DNA from: Spongilla lacustris
Lineage: Eukaryota; Porifera; Demospongiae; Spongillida; Spongillidae
NCBI GenBank assembly: GCA_949361645.1
Contig: OX442418.1
Span: forward strand, 9,327,821-9,391,820
Length of the DNA: 64,000 nucleotides
Direction: 5' to 3'
The number at the start of each line of letters is the position of its first letter. Positions within the stretch are counted from its first letter, which is position 1. Under the pieces are notes generated by a model. The model had not been told where the DNA came from and ran no database searches. It saw nothing but the letters and a program-made list of their open reading frames with translations. A program made the position numbers and the translations under genes. Of this stretch, positions 3,085 through 19,369 are shown one piece after another.

Positions 3085-3910
3085 CTGTAGAATAATTGGT
3101 ATAATGTGTGTGATGGTGAGGATGTACATGGTGTGTGACATTGGGGTGTGTACATGGTGTAGATGGGGTGTGAGAGTGGGTGTAACCGAGGGATGTACAT
3201 AGTGTGTGACACTGAGGATGTACATGATGGTGTGTACTTGTGTGAGGAGGCATGTGTCACAGTCATGTGAGTGACAGTGAGATCGATGTACATGCTGTGT
3301 GTGTGAACAGTGGGGATGTACACTGGTAGGATGTTCATAGTGTGTGACAGAGGGTGTGGATGGTGTGTGTGACAGTGAGAATGTGCATGGCTAGATGGTG
3401 TGTGTGACAGTGCACACTGTAAATAAAATGGTTGCTAAGGCAAACCAAAGTTGATTTACATTGTGTAGACAACATGTGAAACCTTAAATATCACACTAAA
3501 ATTAAATTGGTTGCCACTATATTTAAATTGGCTGATATGTCAAACCGGTTTCATGTGTACATGTTGACTACACAGTGTAAACCAACTTGGTTTGCCCTAG
3601 CAACCATTTTATTTACAGTGCATGCATGCATGCATGGGAATGTTTATGGTGTGTATGATATACAAGGTGTTTGTGACACTGATATGTGTGAAAGTGGGGA
3701 TGGACATGGTAGGATGCTCATAGTGTGTGGCAATGAGAATGTACATGTTGCCTGTGAATGGGGATGTAGATGATGTGTGTGTGTGTGACAATGACGTGTA
3801 CACAATGGGGTGTACATGGTGTGTGACAGTGGGATGTTCATGGTGTGTGTGAGAGTTCAATGGTGTAGATGGTAGTGGGGATGTACATGGTGTGCATATA
3901 TGACATATGT
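3085..3910. repeat. Degenerate TG-rich satellite
   Basis: Irregular units of about 20-35 bp built on GGATGTACATGGTGTGTGAC fill this stretch, which is the first intron of the decayed minus-strand gene. A MITE has inserted in the middle. Open frames rich in His/Thr/Tyr here are products of the repeat, not genes. Confidence 0.85.
3415..3620. mobile_element. MITE with ~70-bp inverted repeats
   Basis: The ends CACTGTAAATAAAATGGTTG and its complement at 3601-3620 begin a long imperfect inverted repeat. Both arms share CAAACCAA, TTTACA and GTGTAGACAACATGTG-like blocks. At 206 bp with no coding capacity it fits a non-autonomous DNA transposon. A CA dinucleotide on both sides is the only visible target-site duplication candidate, so the superfamily is undecided. 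It interrupts the TG-rich satellite. Confidence 0.8.
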
Positions 3911-8262: not shown

Positions 8263-11200
8263 TCAAAAACACTTCCTATGAACAATGGATGGACCAAATT
8301 CATCATATTCCTGCTTGGAGATCCACATTGGCTGGAAGCTTGACAGAGAGGCCAAAATGGAACCACCAATCCAAGCACTGTACTTGCGATCAGGAGGGGC
8401 TATGATGTTCATTTCTAAGGTAGCTTGTGCCAGGGCTGTGATCTCCTTCTGCATCCTTTCTGCAAATCCAGGAAACAGAGTGCTGCCACCAGACAAAACA
8501 ATATTTGCAAACAAGTTTCTTTTTATATCAATATCACACTTTATGACGGAGTAGTATGCATTATCTTGAATACCTTGACATGACATGCCAATATATGAAG
8601 GATTGAACAGGGCCTCTGTAGCCATAAACTGTTCATTGCCAATGGAGATGATTTGACCGTCAGGAAGCTCATAGCTCTTCTCAAATTTGCAACTCTGAGT
8701 AGCTTCATGCATTTCCTGTCTAATATCTTGAGCAACATAGCACGTAGTTTCCTTCACCTTGCTAAAAATTTCATGAAGTCGACATCCGTACTGTGATATG
8801 AAACTGTACTTGCATGACAACAGTCTTTCCAGATGATGAGTAAGGTCTCTACCTGCAATGTCCAGGCGACGTACAGCGTGTGGAAGAACATAACCCTCAA
8901 AAATGGGCACTGTATGTGAAACAGTATGACCACAGTCGATGACCATACCAGTGATACGGCCAGTGGAGTGCAATGACAGCACTGCAGGACTGGCTGCATA
9001 CATGCCAGGTATGTTGAAGTGCTCAAACATAATCTGAGTCATCTTCTCTCGGTTTGCCTTTGGGTTCAAGGGAGGTTCGGTTAGGAGAATGTGATGTTCC
9101 TCTGGGGCCACTCTAAGCTCATTGTAGAAAGTGTGATGCCAGATCTGAAATTGAAAAAAAAAATCCAATAGTTTGCACCTGAGAAATTAACAAAATTCAT
9201 ATTTTAAATATAATATAGTGTGCGCAGTAATAATTGCGTACATTTCGGTATGAATAAAAGGCTATGAGGGTCAGGCATGCATTTGTACATGTATACAGCA
9301 CATGGGGATAATGGTGGCGTGACTCCAACACGGTTACGCTTTTTAAAAAGAACATAGGTTTCACCAAATCTAACACGGCTGTTTCGAGCTGGACAATTAC
9401 AGTGCCGTCCACCCACAAGTTCACACTCGCGCGCGCGTGTATTCGAGTCGAGCGCGAGTCACGCGCGTCACTCAAATACCTATTTACGGCATACCTACAG
9501 ATGATTACGTTAGTTTCAAGCTATTAATAGCATATGTTTTTGTTCCAGCTGTTTTGCTTTGAGTTAAGGCGCGTGAGTTATTATTGCACTCGATCGAGTC
9601 GCGCGCGAGTCGAGCGCGTGTCGAGCGCGCGCGAGTGTGAACTTGTGGGTGGACGGCACTGTAGTTTGATAATTAGAGCGTTACGGTATATGATTTACAA
9701 ATGATGGCGGTTAGCCTCATTATCGCTATGCAATGTTTAACGGCATGGCTTGCTTGAAGCTTACACCTGGTGCTATAATAAGCTGGTGCATTAGTACCAG
9801 CAATCATTCCTCTATAACACACACATCTGAACTATTAATACTACGCTTCTCAAGCAATACACAGGCCTTGTTTTCATAAGCATACGCCGTTACGTCATCT
9901 CGAGCATGTGTTAACGAAGCGCGAGTTGCAACGAGCCGCCAATTTTCTCACTGGTAAGTTCGACATAGAGGCAATGTTAACACTTCAGGCGAAAGGTTTA
10001 TGTCATTAACTAAGTGCGGCCGGCACTTTTCGGCCTAAACAGTCTGCTTGTTTTCTATGAATAATGATGCGGTGTTGTACAGGTTGAATGGATTACCACC
10101 ACCATCAAGTTCAGCTGCACTGCAGAGTGTGTGCAAAACGCATGTATGACAGAAGGGGGGTGAAAAAGGACACCACATACCAGTGTGAGGCATATACTGA
10201 AGCCTTGCACAAGGTGTTTGGTGTGGCATTTCAAACAGAGGAGGATGCAATGGTGTACCCACAAAGCTTTTGTAGCTCCTGCAAGCGTTCCCTTCAGAAG
10301 GCAATGGATGCAGCTGCACAGGGGGTACCATATAGGTGCTGTGTGACTGCATTTCAGTGGCAAGCACATAAAATTGAATCTTGCATGGTGAGATGTTTCA
10401 CCCCCAATATGATGGCATGTGTATTAATTTCTTCCACACATATTAAGGTGTGTGAACACTTCACATCCACTCAGCAAGTGGGAAGGCCATCCAAAGTCAT
10501 TCATCCAGCTAAAGAACGCAGTGCTAATAAGCTTTTGAAGTACATTGATAGCATTTCACCTCTACCACTTAATGCTCTTGGCGACCCAAATCACTGTTTA
10601 GTAGCAGATGACAATTTGTCAGTTCTAAAGGATCTGAAGTGTCCTCTGTGCTTAGAGGTCGTCAACCAGCCACTGGAGCTGCCATGCAGAGCACTTGTGT
10701 GTGCCAAATGCATGAAACAATGGATAGTGGTGTCAGCGGACGTACAGTGTCCCTGTTGCTATGACCCAGCACCATTGCATCTTAACCCTGCACCTACCTT
10801 GGTGTTGAACATCTTGGGCGATGTACTGATACATTGTGCTGTCTGTTCAAGGGACATCAAGGCTAGAAGTTTTGATGATCACCAGTGTACACCAGCTCCT
10901 ACTGAAGAGGAGATGGTAGCTGCTGCAGGTGTCCTGAGACGAATGTCATCAACAAGTCCTGAGAACCCTGTTTTGACATGTCCAACAGGAGGAAGAGTAA
11001 GTACACACGCACACACCACAGACACATGCACAGTCAAAATTAATGTATCACTTATATGCCTTCCTCACAGCCAATGACATTCATGAGGGTTACAACCACC
11101 CACATTGAAACCAAATCAGTCAGCAAGAGGACACTGAAGCGAAGGTGTCAAGAGATGAGCCATGTGCGTGACATCGTCAGTGGAGGGGAGGCATCCGCCT

Positions 11201-14200
11201 TACTTGAGAATGAAATGAAGTGGCTGAGTGATGAAGAAAGGCAGCAATTGTTAGTGGATTCAGGGATTGCTATGGACATCTGCAAAGTGAGTGCAGACCA
11301 AGGCTTGGCAATCAAGGCTGGCCTAGCAATCCCTTGGCACAAGCTGCGAATACTCCGAAGGTCAGTATCGTATACATGTATGCACATCACTAACATGCCA
11401 CAGTTTTTTAAATAATAACCCTGTTATCACTTACATATAAATTTAGATGGCTTAAGGCTTCAGGAATCTCCATTGGGAGTGAAAAAAGGATGCGGCAAAT
11501 CTCGAGAGAGATGATCAGGGGCAACCTCAAAGGTGAGATTGCGCCTTTTTCATTTAAACTGAAATCTGGTGGAGAGGAGATACGAGGAGCCGCCTTGGTG
11601 TATGTTCCAAATCTGGTGGAAAAGGTGTTCCAACTGCTGGATGAGAATGCCAAGTAATGAATAAATTACATAAGATGGTAATATATAAATGCACTTGTGT
11701 TTATTACATACATGTAGAGCTGGCAGGCTCACTTGGCATGACGTAATCCCCAGTGATGAAGTGTGGATAAAGCTGGGAGGGGACAAGGGTGGAGGGACAT
11801 TCAAGATGAGCTTTCAAATTGTTAATGTTCCTTCGCCCAATTCTCCTCAAAATACCTGTGTCTTCTGCTGCTTTGAGGCTGATGACAACGTCACTAACCT
11901 GCATGTAGCATTGGATCGCTATCAAGACCAGGTGGTAGAACTGCAAAGGATAAAATGGAGGTTGGTATTAAATAAGTTATTACAAATGGGCAGGTGATTT
12001 TAATTCACACAGGCAATATAAAATCAAGTTGTTTCTTTGCGGTGACTATGACTTTTTCAGTACAATGTATGGCCTTTCAGGAGTTTGTGGTGCGTCAATA
12101 CTAAATGTCAATAACTGTGACACCCATTATACATGACTAACCTTTGTACACAGGGTGCTACCCTTGCTTGTGTTGCCATATTCATAAAGATAAGATGAAG
12201 ATTCCCATAGCCAATCGAGGAGAATTTGCGGCACGCACATTGGAGAGCATCATTCAGGATAACATAAATTACATGGAAAATGGAGGGATTAGGAGCAATG
12301 CACAATTGTTCCATAATTGCATTTCAAAGCCAATTTTTAACATTCCTCTATCCCAGGTTAGAATGGATTGTACATCATTCAGTCATTACACTTGCCCCTT
12401 CCACCCTCACACCATAGGTGTGCTTGCCAGGTCTCCATATAACTCTGGGTGTCTTCACAAAGATCTTCAAGCTGTTTGAGGACACATGCCATGAGCTGGA
12501 TCTGAAACTTGCTTGTTCCTCTATGCAAATTGCAACCAGCTCTTCAACTTTTGAGGAGTACCACCAGGAGATGCTGAAGATGCTGTCAGCCAAAGAAGAC
12601 CTCACAAGCCAACTGCAAGAGCTCAATGTTCATGAGCAGCTGACCACATATTTGTCCATCCTCTATGGTGAGACAAATGAGGTGGTTAAAGGTCTCCTTG
12701 AGCAAGTCGAGATTAAGAGACAAGCTGTAAAACAAGTGGTGAGTCAAGTTAAACAACAATGCATTTAAGAACTATACTATTATTATTAAAGGAACAGCAA
12801 ATTGAATCATCCAAAACACATCTCCAAAAGGGATTTCCATTAAATGATGGACCCTTTGTCAAACAGCTTGATGTTGCTCTCCAGTCCTTTAATGTTGAAA
12901 GGCAAAGTTACTTTGGTGGTGCCTTCATAGGCAATCACGTGCACAAGTCATTGCAGGTACTTAAATATGCACATGTATAATGGTTCCTAATCGGCATCAC
13001 TGTGCCTATGCACTGTCCACACATGCAGCCTAAGAACATTGAAACCCTGTGCAACTCCTTGAATGAGGTGGTAGTGAATGACCAACCAGGTCTGACAGCT
13101 GACATTGTGAAAACGTCGGAAAAGTTTAAGAACATATTAGAAATGTTTGCAACATGCCACAAGTTTGTATGATGCATCATTTCTATCTGGTGACAGCATT
13201 GAACAACTTAGTAAGTTTTAAAAAATGTAAATGTTTTAAATTAAACACTTATTTTGTCCACATAATTTTTTTTTTAGGACAAGCAATCACAAACTTCATG
13301 GATGCTTTCAGGAAATCCTTTCCCCAAGCCACTGTACCAGTAAAGATGCATCTCCTTGAAGATCACACAGTTGCTTGGGTGCAAAAGTGGCATGTGGGGT
13401 TCGGTCTCCTTGGAGAACAAGGTGCCGAATCCATACATGCCAAGTTCAATGCTCTCCATAGGACATATGCTTCAATCCACGAAAAGCTTCAGCATTACCA
13501 GTGTGTGATGAAGGAACACCTCATCTCCATTGCACCACAAAATGTCGCAGCAATACCAGCAATAATAAAACGACCGAAATATTCTAAGGAATAGTATCAT
13601 CTATGCACTACGTGCTATAAAACATCGCTTTAAATGAGTAAATCACCTATGTTTGATGACTTGTAGCGCTGTCATTTCTGCAGGCCGCACTTAGTTGTTT
13701 GGCTTTCTAGGTAGCCTCCACTCTCCACCATCTATCCACGTCTTGCTTTCACCCAGGAAAATTGGCGGTAGTCTAGTGTTCCGATCTTTGTGAAGGATAT
13801 CTCATCGCGGTACTCTCGTGGCGAGCGCTACAGCTAACAGACGGTACAGAGTTGTGCCTTGTAATTCACACATAGGAAAGAAAAATGGTATGACTACGCT
13901 AAAATGGTTTTTAAATGGCGGGACTACAAGTGCAGTCCTTATATAGCTCGAAGATACAAAGTCCTTGTTGAGGTCATGTTTGATGATGTAATCGTTTCAA
14001 TATTTCAGGGCGTAGGTCTTAGTGTCCAACGTTCAATGGGCCTGAAACAGCCGTGCTAAAGTCAATTTCACACCGTGACGTAATATAAGACAAACAATGA
14101 GTTGCGCTGTAGTGACGTCGACGTTAAAGGGTATATTCCTCCAATACTAAAGTCAGCTATGCATACTTTCAATACTTTACAACACAAGTACTGGAGGAAT

Positions 14201-14718
14201 ACAAAAAATTCAAGGGAAATCGCTTGTCGAATAAGATCTAATATCTAAAGTGGCGTAGCGAAGGGAGGGGGGGGGGGGGGGGGGACCCCCGCCCCCCCGG
14301 TATTCGGATTTGGCCAAGCGCAAGAGGTGCATGGTCTTAACATCGGGGGGGGGGGGGGGGGGGGGGGGGCGCCCTTAGTGCATTATGCCCCCGGGGGTCC
14401 AATACCCTCGCTACGCCACCGAATATCTATATATGGGGACAGCGGCCAATATACATTGCTCACCTTTTCCATATCGTCCCAGTTTGTTACATGACCGAAT
14501 TCAATGGGGTGTTTGGCAGTAATAAGGAGTTCGCTCTTGCTGCTGACCACATCTCCAATGTAGACGTCTTTACTACCCTCTGTCTCTTCCTTGCTGCTGA
14601 CGATGGAAGGAAATACTACGCTTGGGATATCTTTACCGGCCAAGCCTGCCTTGATCGTTCCAGAGCCATTGTCAACTACAATACTAGTCCCTGGCCCAAC
14701 GTGTGAATCCATATCCAA
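8263..14718 (-). CDS. Divergent actin paralogue, two exons
   Basis: Exon 1 is 14718-14464 (85 codons) and exon 2 is 9144-8263; the donor is AAAAG|GTGAGC and the acceptor TTTCAG|ATCTGG, in phase 0. The product is about 378 residues against 375 for canonical actin and is colinear throughout: VVDNGSG at the phosphate-1 loop, [18 protein letters not shown] across the junction, [34 protein letters not shown], and a C-terminus ending RKCF. Several nucleotide-site residues differ: the usual LDSGDGVTH is IDCGHTVSH, and the Gln of AIQAVLSL (Gln137) is Pro. The position of methylated His73 appears as Phe (IEFGHV). It is probably an actin-fold protein with altered ATP handling, or an actin decaying under weak constraint; no stops or frameshifts favour the former. 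The intron carries three mobile elements. Confidence 0.9.
9400..9661. mobile_element. MITE with CG-rich inverted repeats, TA duplication
   Basis: CAGTGCCGTCCACCCACAAG at 9400 continues to TTCACACTCGCGCGCG and is mirrored by the complement ending at 9661. Arms are about 40 bp with further CGAGTCGCGCG blocks inside. The flanks read ...ATTA on the left and TAG... on the right, so a TA target-site duplication is possible, as in Tc1/mariner-like elements. It lies in the actin intron. Dense CpG is unusual for this window. Confidence 0.85.
9937..13768 (+). mobile_element. RAG1-like DNA transposon, near-complete
   Basis: The element surrounds the transposase gene. CCGCCAATTTTC at 9937-9948 and AACTAAGTGCGGCC at about 10011 reappear inverted as GGCCGCACTTAGTT at 13682 and GAAAATTGGCGG at 13757-13768. 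The spacing differs slightly, so these may be terminal or subterminal repeats; exact ends and target-site duplication were not found. It sits in the intron of the actin-like gene in antisense orientation. A relative with a different flank lies at about 25340-27890. Confidence 0.65.
10088..13594 (+). CDS. RAG1-like transposase, multi-exon, one frameshift
   Basis: Exons by splice signal and phase: 10088-10387, 10448-10996, 11071-11360, 11447-11653, 11718-11960, 12013-12089, 12154-12356, 12418-12738, 12792-12956, 13029 to about 13212, and 13278-13594; about 950 residues. N-terminal half: HCRVC with FCSSC (as in the RAG1 N-terminal region), then H-x4-C-x2-C-x2-H completed across the first intron, a GRPSK motif, a RING (Cys codons 10640-10759: CPLC, PC, CAKC, CPCC) and a CAVC...H-x-C finger. 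C-terminal half: [16 protein letters not shown] with CYPCLCC 16 residues on, KMHLLEDH, and [12 protein letters not shown], read as Asp, Asp, Zn Cys pair, Zn His pair and Glu of an RNase H-like transposase. Anomalies: the usual RING His is Ala, and one extra base near 13166 breaks the frame between ATCHK and YDASFLSGD. Likely a transposase of a RAG1-related or N-RAG type element, acting in the nucleus. Confidence 0.8.
13769..14247. other. Intronic spacer, no feature recognised
   Basis: Within the actin-like gene's intron, between the RAG1-like transposon and the hAT-type MITE. No open frame or repeat could be supported. Confidence 0.5.
14248..14421. mobile_element. hAT-type MITE with 8-bp target duplication
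   Basis: AAGTGGCGTAGCGAAGGG at the left is mirrored by CCCTCGCTACGCCACCG at the right. The 8-bp AATATCTA is present directly outside both ends (14240-14247 and 14422-14429), as expected for hAT insertions. The inside is two long poly-G runs with almost no other content. It lies 40 bp from exon 1 of the actin-like gene, in its intron. Confidence 0.9.
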
Positions 14719-15302
14719 GGGATATATTCATGAACCTAAAAATAGCTGCTGCAGATGACGCAATGTTTGTGTTCGGTGGTAGCATGCATTTACAAATCAT
14801 TGTCGGAATTTACACCCTATCGAATGATCCCCCAGTACTAGAGTGGAACTTCGTATAAGGAATTCTGGTGTGGTTTGAAAAATATCTAGGCCATTTTAAG
14901 TGGTGCAATGATGACAAACACATTTTTAAGTAGCGGGAGACCCAAACTAAATCACTAGGGTGTTTTTGGTCCGTATAAACCTTCAGTTGTGTTAATTCGA
15001 CGTGACCCAACTTTACCCGACCACGCTCACGCGTTCACTGCACTTTCTAGGATATAGTAATGGGTCTCGCTGTGTGGTTCGATCAAACTTCAGTGATTCC
15101 TATACCTATACATACTTTAAATAGCAATGCACCACTTACCGTTTGTTCAATATAATTCAAAAACGACAGTAGCCTAGAGAGCTGCCATCTTTTTCACACA
15201 AATTGTACAGTTATTAAAAATTAACTCCTTTTATTATTGTTAACGGGCGTTAAATATGCATTCCAGTCGTGCGCGCGCTGCGTTTTGGCTCAACCCTACT
15301 CT
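14719..15302. promoter_or_regulatory. Possible divergent promoter interval
   Basis: This 0.6-kb interval separates the start of the actin-like gene (minus) from a small plus-strand open frame. I see no clear TATA box or initiator. The assignment is positional only. Confidence 0.25.
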
Positions 15303-18427: not shown

Positions 18428-19369
18428 CTAAAAGTCACAAGATGTAGTTGGTGAGGCACATCTGGCCAAAATTGCCCTGGCATTCTGCCTCATAAGGATG
18501 AGGCTAAGGCGACTGTAGATGGTTGATGTAACCTCAATAAGAGGTCGACATAGCTGGGTGGCCATCTTTTTAGACAGTTTAGTCAGCACATCAATAGCTT
18601 CATTGCCCCAACCCCCAAACACTTCCACAACCAAAGGGATGCATGACCATCCTCTAAGGGCACATGCCTCATCATTTGCAGAGTGCTTGGATTCCTCTCC
18701 CATCTCAGCTGCATGACCACAGGTTTGAGCCGCTTCTTGTAAAAATTGCAAATTTAGCGGATTGATCACGTTTATGTCAAATGCAGCTGGGCGGGAGAGG
18801 GACCAGTTTGGCACTAGGATGTCTGCTGGTCTAGATTGATCCTTAGGAAGAATGCCACTTCCTTTCTCAATTTGTGGGGAAAGGCATGCTTTGTTGCAGA
18901 AGTCGGTAATGCAGTCTCTGAGCAGGTTGTGTCTTGTTATCATATCACCTCCAGAATGGCAAGTAAGCATGTAATGTCCCCAAGCATCCATGTTGTGATG
19001 ACAAAGCGGGCATGGAGTGCCATCAGGTGTCAAAGGAAGGCCAAGCCACCATTTTAGAATGACATGTGCTTCATCAGGCATCAACGCAAGACCTAACTTT
19101 GGTGAAGGCTACACTTTAAGCCACGCATGAGCTTGTGGTGCTGAAATAGCATGCAATCTAGCCTTTGTCACAGTGCTAGCATCTGAAAAGAGCGAATTGA
19201 AGTCAGCTTCTTCAATGCGTGAGGACAGTGAGTGCTGGCAAGGTGGAACATCAAGTACGCTTTCCACTGAGATGGCATCTGGCTGACTGACCATGGCATT
19301 GTAAGCATTCACTGCTTTTACTTCATGCTTAGCCTTATGCAGGAATGTACACCACAAGTCAGTCAACAC
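18428..19369 (-). pseudogene. LINE-type retrotransposon, C-terminal region
   Basis: On the minus strand the sequence reads from 19369 to 18428 in one frame with a single in-frame TAG at about 19106, just before PSPKLGLALMPDEAHVILKW. Then follow CPLCHHNMDAWGHYMLTC with GGDMITRHNLLRD, a QSRPADILVPNW motif, AAFDINVINPL, a KHSANDEACALRGWSCIPLV segment, and a tail ending RAILARCASP. It is the best-preserved copy of the family in this window, yet it lacks the reverse transcriptase core upstream. Inactive. Confidence 0.75.

Follow-up and report, generated by a model that had tools for sequence, protein, structure and literature searches.

A Chapaev-group transposon of the sponge Spongilla lacustris whose predicted transposase joins a RAG1-like N-terminal third to a DUF1280 core

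Main finding

The window analysed here, a 64,000-nucleotide stretch of Spongilla lacustris DNA, lies on contig C4 of a 248.6-Mb genome. It was found that positions 9374 to 14055 of this window very probably hold a cut-and-paste transposon of the Chapaev group (CMC/CMCT clade), in a copy that is recent but broken; I give this reading a probability of about 0.94. The 11-exon gene predicted in it would encode a transposase of about 950 residues, in which a Chapa-RING-finger N-terminal third homologous to that of RAG1 is followed by a DUF1280 DDE core, a remote cousin of the RAG1/Transib core. The first-pass annotation of this DNA had proposed a transposase that keeps both halves of RAG1. A RAG1-type N third and a DDE core are indeed joined in a transposon here; the core, however, is of the DUF1280/Chapaev type and not of the RAG1/Transib type. 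The locus still bears on the assembly of RAG1, as had been suggested, by way of a discordance between N third and core.

The predicted gene

The gene (10088-13594, plus strand) starts with an ATG at 10088 and ends with a stop codon at 13592-13594, exactly where they had been placed at first, and its exon borders are GT/AG. Its exons are as follows.

10088..10387 (+), exon 1: Chapa-type zinc fingers HCRVC and FCSSC; matches the mouse RAG1 N-terminus
10448..10996 (+), exon 2: CMVCEH half-finger, RING-like domain (His ligand missing), post-RING finger
11071..11360 (+), exon 3: start of the transposase half; PF06918 match begins
11447..11653 (+), exon 4
11718..11960 (+), exon 5: GGDKGG with the first catalytic Asp; PF06918 match ends near here
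12013..12089 (+), exon 6: CGDYDF with the second catalytic Asp
12154..12356 (+), exon 7: CLCC, the C(2)C zinc pair
12418..12738 (+), exon 8: GLHIT, the LH motif
12792..12956 (+), exon 9
13029..13210 (+), exon 10: frame break at about 13161-13172
13278..13594 (+), exon 11: HLLEDH (H(4)H pair) and GEQGAES (catalytic Glu); stop codon at 13592-13594

The spliced conceptual protein has 951 positions, including one X for the single frame break of this copy, in exon 10. As had been read at first, HCRVC and FCSSC both lie in exon 1, and GGD (within GGDKGG), CGDYDF and GEQGAESIH lie in later exons of the same gene. The 60-nt intron at 10388-10447 reads open, and its intron status was shown by relatives in the same genome. 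Since those relatives have a 60-nt intron there, an exon 1 read without the intron was dropped; the single-sequence score against RAG1 then fell from 38.6 to 29.1 bits.

Ends, target site duplications and copies of the element

The whole gene is bracketed by one pair of inverted ends and one target site duplication.

9370..9373: left target site duplication, 4 bp, CTAA
9374..14055 (+): whole Chapaev-type element, 4,682 bp, with 12-bp inverted ends CACGGCTGTTTC/GAAACAGCCGTG
9374..9385 (+): left terminal inverted repeat CACGGCTGTTTC
14044..14055 (-): right terminal inverted repeat
14056..14059: right target site duplication, 4 bp, CTAA
9400..9661: 262-bp miniature inverted-repeat transposable element (MITE) with a TA duplication, a later insertion in the left end of the element; absent in the copy L009, which keeps a single TA

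The copy L009, on contig C1, is a second full-length element. It is 99.0% identical to the window copy over 9662-14055 (26 substitutions in a global alignment), is flanked on both sides by TGTG as its own 4-bp duplication, and has two in-frame stops within the exons read (1-9). The MITE nested at 9400-9661 has long inverted ends (CAGTGCCGTCC...) and is Tc1/mariner-like by its TA site.

Twenty short copies (1.8-2.4 kb) were picked from 28 whose two ends could be paired; the counts of element ends are lower bounds, with 40 scored of 134 and of 92 candidates. Exact 4-bp target duplications were found in all 22 copies (the 20 short ones, the window copy and L009), and these are 22 different sequences as written, or 21 with the strands pooled. 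The same 22 of 22 copies have 5'-CAC...GTG-3' inverted termini, which is not independent evidence for the short copies because they were found via these ends. The left 1.3 kb is retained in 20/20 short copies at 78-96% identity, and the right end from about base 3658-3731 (the last ~0.65-0.75 kb) in 19/20; one short copy keeps only the last 0.4 kb. No match to the core exons was found in any of the 20. The short copies are internally deleted derivatives of a sister subfamily.

Inside the element, near both ends of the gene, there are 18-bp inverted repeats (AACTAAGTGCGGCC..., 94% complementary) at 10008-10025 and 13679-13696. This pair was ruled out as the end of the element because L009 is collinear out to 9374 and 14055. 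The repeats are possible candidates for subterminal transposase-binding sites.

The N-terminal third resembles that of RAG1

A family profile of the N third was made from nine members, the window's sequence included. It matches mouse RAG1 over 102-373 with an E-value of 9.2e-29, in agreement with the RAG1-like order of zinc modules noticed in the first-pass annotation, and it also matches 21wb, a RAG1 N-terminal chain, over the part of the profile before the RING (1.1e-10). Among the best 60 of its 168 matches, no RING protein apart from RAG1 does better than 1.1e-13, in a match over the RING. A ten-member profile of members with both halves matches RAG1 over the RING part only. The spliced N third by itself matches 1RMD (RAG1 RING and finger) at 4.8e-6. 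When the intron is translated along with it, the N third matches mouse RAG1 at 6.7e-9 and other RING proteins from 6e-5 on. The crinoid protein P0067 scores above the cut-off of the Pfam model RAG1_imp_bd, which matches 4 of the 22 members of alignment A3 at E<=10.

The zinc modules largely follow the first reading. The finger read as H-x4-C-x2-C-x2-H yields H-x4-C-x2-C once the 60-nt intron is removed, but one residue, not two, stands before the last His. The RING was recovered on the spliced N third alone, where Pfam PF00097 passes its cut-off (23.0 bits vs 21); no RING model passes the Pfam cut-off in the longer unspliced protein. This RING lacks the C3HC4 histidine (CRALVC), and the further finger claimed after it is present as CAVC..H.C. 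C-x-A stands in place of the C3HC4 C-x-H in the RINGs of the window, P0002, P0025 and P0058. The histidine is kept in three of nine rows (the crinoid P0067 and P0069 and the Hydra P0081), and P0073 and P0078 have Glu. Since the histidine is lacking, full RING ligase activity seems doubtful in the sponge members. Sponge RINGs without it, including those of several loci in the same genome, read CRALVC, CGALVC, CNAVLC and CDRLVC.

The core is DUF1280, a remote relative of the RAG1 core

The core matches Pfam DUF1280 at 2.1e-16, and a DUF1280 match was found in 21 of the 22 members of A3. DUF1280 corresponds to putative Chapaev transposases, and RAG1 and DUF1280 were placed in one clade (II) of RNase-H-like folds (PMC3985635). 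Of the 86 proteins found, 39 make up alignment A4. Counted over its non-gap rows, the first catalytic Asp is present in 36/36, the second in 38/38 and the Glu in 35/37. Each Cys of the zinc pair is present in 37/37, the LH His in 34/34 and the two His of H(4)H in 37/38 and 36/37.

PF12940, the RAG1-type core model, has no match in the window protein at E<=1. It has 0 matches in the whole genome, although control genomes likewise gave none and its absence is not proved. The profile search that the first-pass annotation had suggested finds RAG1 with the N third, but a 15-member core profile, searched with HMMER against the PDB, picked up neither RAG1 nor RAG1L nor Transib chains at E<=10.

Profile-profile alignment reaches further. 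The C-terminal part scores 36.7 against RAG1 (maximum 26.2 in 100 shuffles) and puts RAG1 H937, H942 and E962 on H742, H747 and E768 of P0001. The middle part scores 25.4 (maximum 23.7 in 100 shuffles) and puts D708, C727 and C730 on D415, C434 and C437. These are catalytic and zinc residues of RAG1; their positions were checked on the mouse chain. The first Asp was paired with that of RAG1 by eye only. Some spacings are similar in RAG1 and P0001 (D708-C727, 19 vs 19; H942-E962, 20 vs 21) and others are not (D600-D708, 108 vs 70; LH to H(4)H, 142 vs 238). The first-pass annotation had considered a C-terminal half with a fold unrelated to RAG1/Transib; instead, the second Asp and the Glu line up with those of RAG1, and so do both zinc pairs, Cys and His. 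It is suggested that the DUF1280 and RAG1/Transib cores are remote relatives, weakly joined at the profile-profile level.

Relatives and loci of the same genome

Is the joining of the two halves peculiar to this copy? In a search with the whole conceptual protein, which scored only the 7,997 candidates sharing most words, 51 of the 52 matches at E<=0.001 were gene models of the freshwater sponge Ephydatia muelleri, recognised by name or by the Em prefix of the gene, and one was from sea urchin. Ephydatia models such as P0002, P0003, P0006 and P0009 join both halves in one protein. In the Spongilla genome, the RAG1_imp_bd profile gave 22 matches (137 of 153 candidates scored). Fifteen of them have a DUF1280 match on the same strand 1.1-2.0 kb downstream, where 0.015 would be expected by chance, and 7 have none. 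DUF1280 exons gave 116 matches among 127 scored candidates. In seven further loci, all chosen from the linked pairs, the N third is followed by DUF1280 core exons; two of them, L058 and L059, are closely alike. The C-terminal GEQG block was found in six of these seven (in L061 over a frame change), and L057 ends at the second Asp.

Two other loci, L047 and L048, represent a second Chapaev family in the same genome, with ~38-60% identity in protein pieces, and many DUF1280 matches of the genome score like this family. In amphioxus, the DUF1280 protein model P0083 has a MYND finger match, which a fused gene model might explain.

Histories of the two halves

The trees of the two halves, which the first-pass annotation had proposed to compare, were made from nine proteins: four from sponges, two from crinoids, one from Hydra and two others. 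The maximum likelihood trees of N third and core agree except at one internal branch (support 76 and 62). In the approximately unbiased test, neither data set rejects the tree of the other (p 0.189 and 0.232). Thus, the two halves travelled together inside Chapaev, as far as these nine proteins go.

The comparison with RAG1 covers one RAG1 (mouse) and the nine family members. RAG1 is placed in the N-third tree with a support of 45%. When one clade at a time was left out of the profile, five Chapaev representatives scored 73-97 bits and mouse RAG1 97-109 bits with the N third, and Chapaev 435-643 bits and mouse RAG1 at most 6.6 bits with the core. With all nine members, RAG1 scored 53.4 bits for Chapa alone (31.7-75.2 for Chapaev), 60.2 bits for RING and finger (15.3-52.5), and 5.8 bits for the core (435-643). 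Shuffled RAG1 reaches 8.3 bits for Chapa (50/50 scored) and 2.3 bits for the core (33/50 scored). On these scores, the two halves of RAG1 look clearly discordant relative to Chapaev, although the Chapaev halves share one history; this speaks more for an exchanged N third than for plain co-inheritance. Most simply, the discordance would mean either that the N third was exchanged later on, or that the Transib/RAG core alone underwent a very large change.

The second of these accords with a published proposal. By that proposal, Chapaev and Transib would have split only after the Chapa-RING-finger module had been joined to the core, and RAG1 would simply have kept it (PMC4411706). The shared history of the halves in the nine-protein trees, the remote homology of the cores and the parsimony argument of that paper speak for this, and I consider its chances close to even. 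It has to accommodate a RAG1 N third that scores like any Chapaev clade next to a RAG1 core with only 5.8 bits. Inside Chapaev, summed branch lengths are 11.2 for the N third and 7.2 for the core. Since the N third is thus the faster half, co-inheritance would need a large change of the core alone on the RAG/Transib branch.

The first may be put forward tentatively, with a chance that falls somewhat short of one half. RAG1 would be a mosaic, whose Chapa-RING-finger third was passed between Chapaev-type and Transib/RAG-type transposons long after the cores had separated. This is proposed because the N third of RAG1 fits among Chapaev, its core hardly scores, and the Chapaev halves were inherited together in the sponge, Hydra and crinoid members.

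A Chapaev transposase and its alternatives

How might such a transposase work? By analogy with its superfamily, the core would bind the CAC-ended inverted repeats and cut both ends, and the cut ends would be joined to the target with a 4-bp stagger. The N-terminal third of RAG1 binds DNA and helps in dimerisation, and its counterpart here probably adds DNA binding and dimer contacts. The core-less short derivatives would presumably be mobilised in trans.

Several results weigh against the Chapaev reading with a RAG1-like N third. The match of the spliced N third alone to mouse RAG1 is modest (5e-6), and against 6oem_A no single stretch of it passes 1e-5 alone. A protein search with the N third gave one match among 1,009 candidates, which was not RAG1, and RAG1_imp_bd does not match the window's own N third even at E<=10. 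DUF1280 serves as a proxy for Repbase or other reference Chapaev transposases in the assignment to Chapaev. The splicing of the N exons to the core exons is predicted, and since this copy is broken and L009 has two stops, I infer the transposase activity from sequence.

Alternatively, the element could be a genuine RAG-like transposon (Transib/TransibSU) with both halves of RAG1 retained. Its RAG1-like N third, the CAC at its ends, the same order of zinc and catalytic residues, and distances near the second Asp and the Glu that resemble those of RAG1 would all fit. Yet this alternative is refuted on the tested features and is extremely improbable: the core is DUF1280, with 0 PF12940 matches in the genome and no PDB match of the core profile to RAG1, RAG1L or Transib at E<=10; the target site duplication is 4 bp and not 5; the end reads CACGGCT; and no RAG2-like gene was seen in the element. 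For a RAG2-like kelch gene inside 9374-14055, the longest other open frame has 122 codons, although a gene of many short exons is possible, and neither kelch nor PHD was matched in the 10 frames scanned of the 16 other element frames of >=60 codons. A domesticated host gene, or two unrelated elements adjoining by chance, is just as improbable despite the position in an actin intron and the nested MITE, which shows that one element can insert in another, because one pair of inverted ends and one target site duplication bracket the whole gene, a near-identical copy exists elsewhere, the frame is broken, and many loci have both halves in the same order. A Chapaev transposon remains the preferred reading.

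Surroundings in the window

The Chapaev copy sits in an intron of an actin gene and makes up most of the length of that intron.

8263-9147 (-): actin gene exon, PF00022, 1.4e-101
14386-14724 (-): actin gene exon, PF00022, 1e-16

Two long poly-G tracts lie at 14265-14370, just outside the element and within the actin intron. At 18428-19108 (minus strand) there is an open frame of 226 codons, for which Pfam gave no match at E<=0.01. By eye, it resembles a stretch of the Ephydatia model P0022, and it perhaps comes from another mobile element.

Comparison with known systems

The published hallmarks of Chapaev are CAC/GTG ends, 3-4-bp target site duplications, and the C(2)C, LH and H(4)H motifs (PMC4079192). 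The present element has CAC...GTG ends, a 4-bp duplication, and a DUF1280 DDE core with C(2)C, LH and H(4)H. Identity with Chapaev3 was ruled out on the target site: the superfamily-level motifs are common to both, but Chapaev3 makes 3-bp TWA duplications (PMC4079192), and here they are 4 bp. In two Chapaev subgroups a Chapa domain is described to precede a RING, which is also the arrangement in RAG1, and an ancient fusion with subsequent losses was argued for it (Kapitonov and Koonin 2015, PMC4411706). The element shares the Chapa domain, the RING and the Chapaev-type core of these subgroups; Chapa zinc fingers precede the RING here as well, although the RING lacks its His. Against the published description, the sponge RINGs are set apart by the missing His ligand. 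Lancelet and sea anemone are named for the group by which the Chapa domain was defined, and the species given in the legend of figure 2 include no sponge (PMC4411706).

Vertebrate RAG1 has the same order of N-terminal zinc modules and the same order of D-D-E, C(2)C, LH and H(4)H. In contrast, its core is related at the profile-profile level only, and no RAG2 partner was seen in this element. Beyond CAC, the ends are unlike the recombination signal sequences. Transib ends are CACWRTG-like, against CACGGCT in the present element. Transib/TransibSU elements share CAC ends and a DDE core with C(2)C and H(3-4)H (PMC12730594), but belong to a different Pfam family and make 5-bp duplications (PMC4411706, PMC7204232) where those here are 4 bp. 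N-RAG-TP of Aplysia is also a transposon with a RAG1 N-terminal-like sequence. By its description it is entirely RAG1 N-terminal-like (PMC8355894), whereas the present element has a full core.

In the open-licence literature searched, I found neither a sponge Chapaev described with a RAG1-type N third nor a direct comparison of the histories of the two halves. Since the layout of Chapaev with Chapa and RING has been in print since 2015 (PMC4411706), the architecture is known, and the present element is an added member of it, in a sponge. For the RAG1 N third, two origins are candidates: an N-RAG-TP-type element became fused to a Transib, or a Chapa-RING-core protein was ancestral and was lost in Transibs. 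With its many Chapa-RING-DUF1280 loci, this sponge genome takes the fused form to an animal lineage that branched off among the earliest, and it permits the histories of the two halves to be compared directly.

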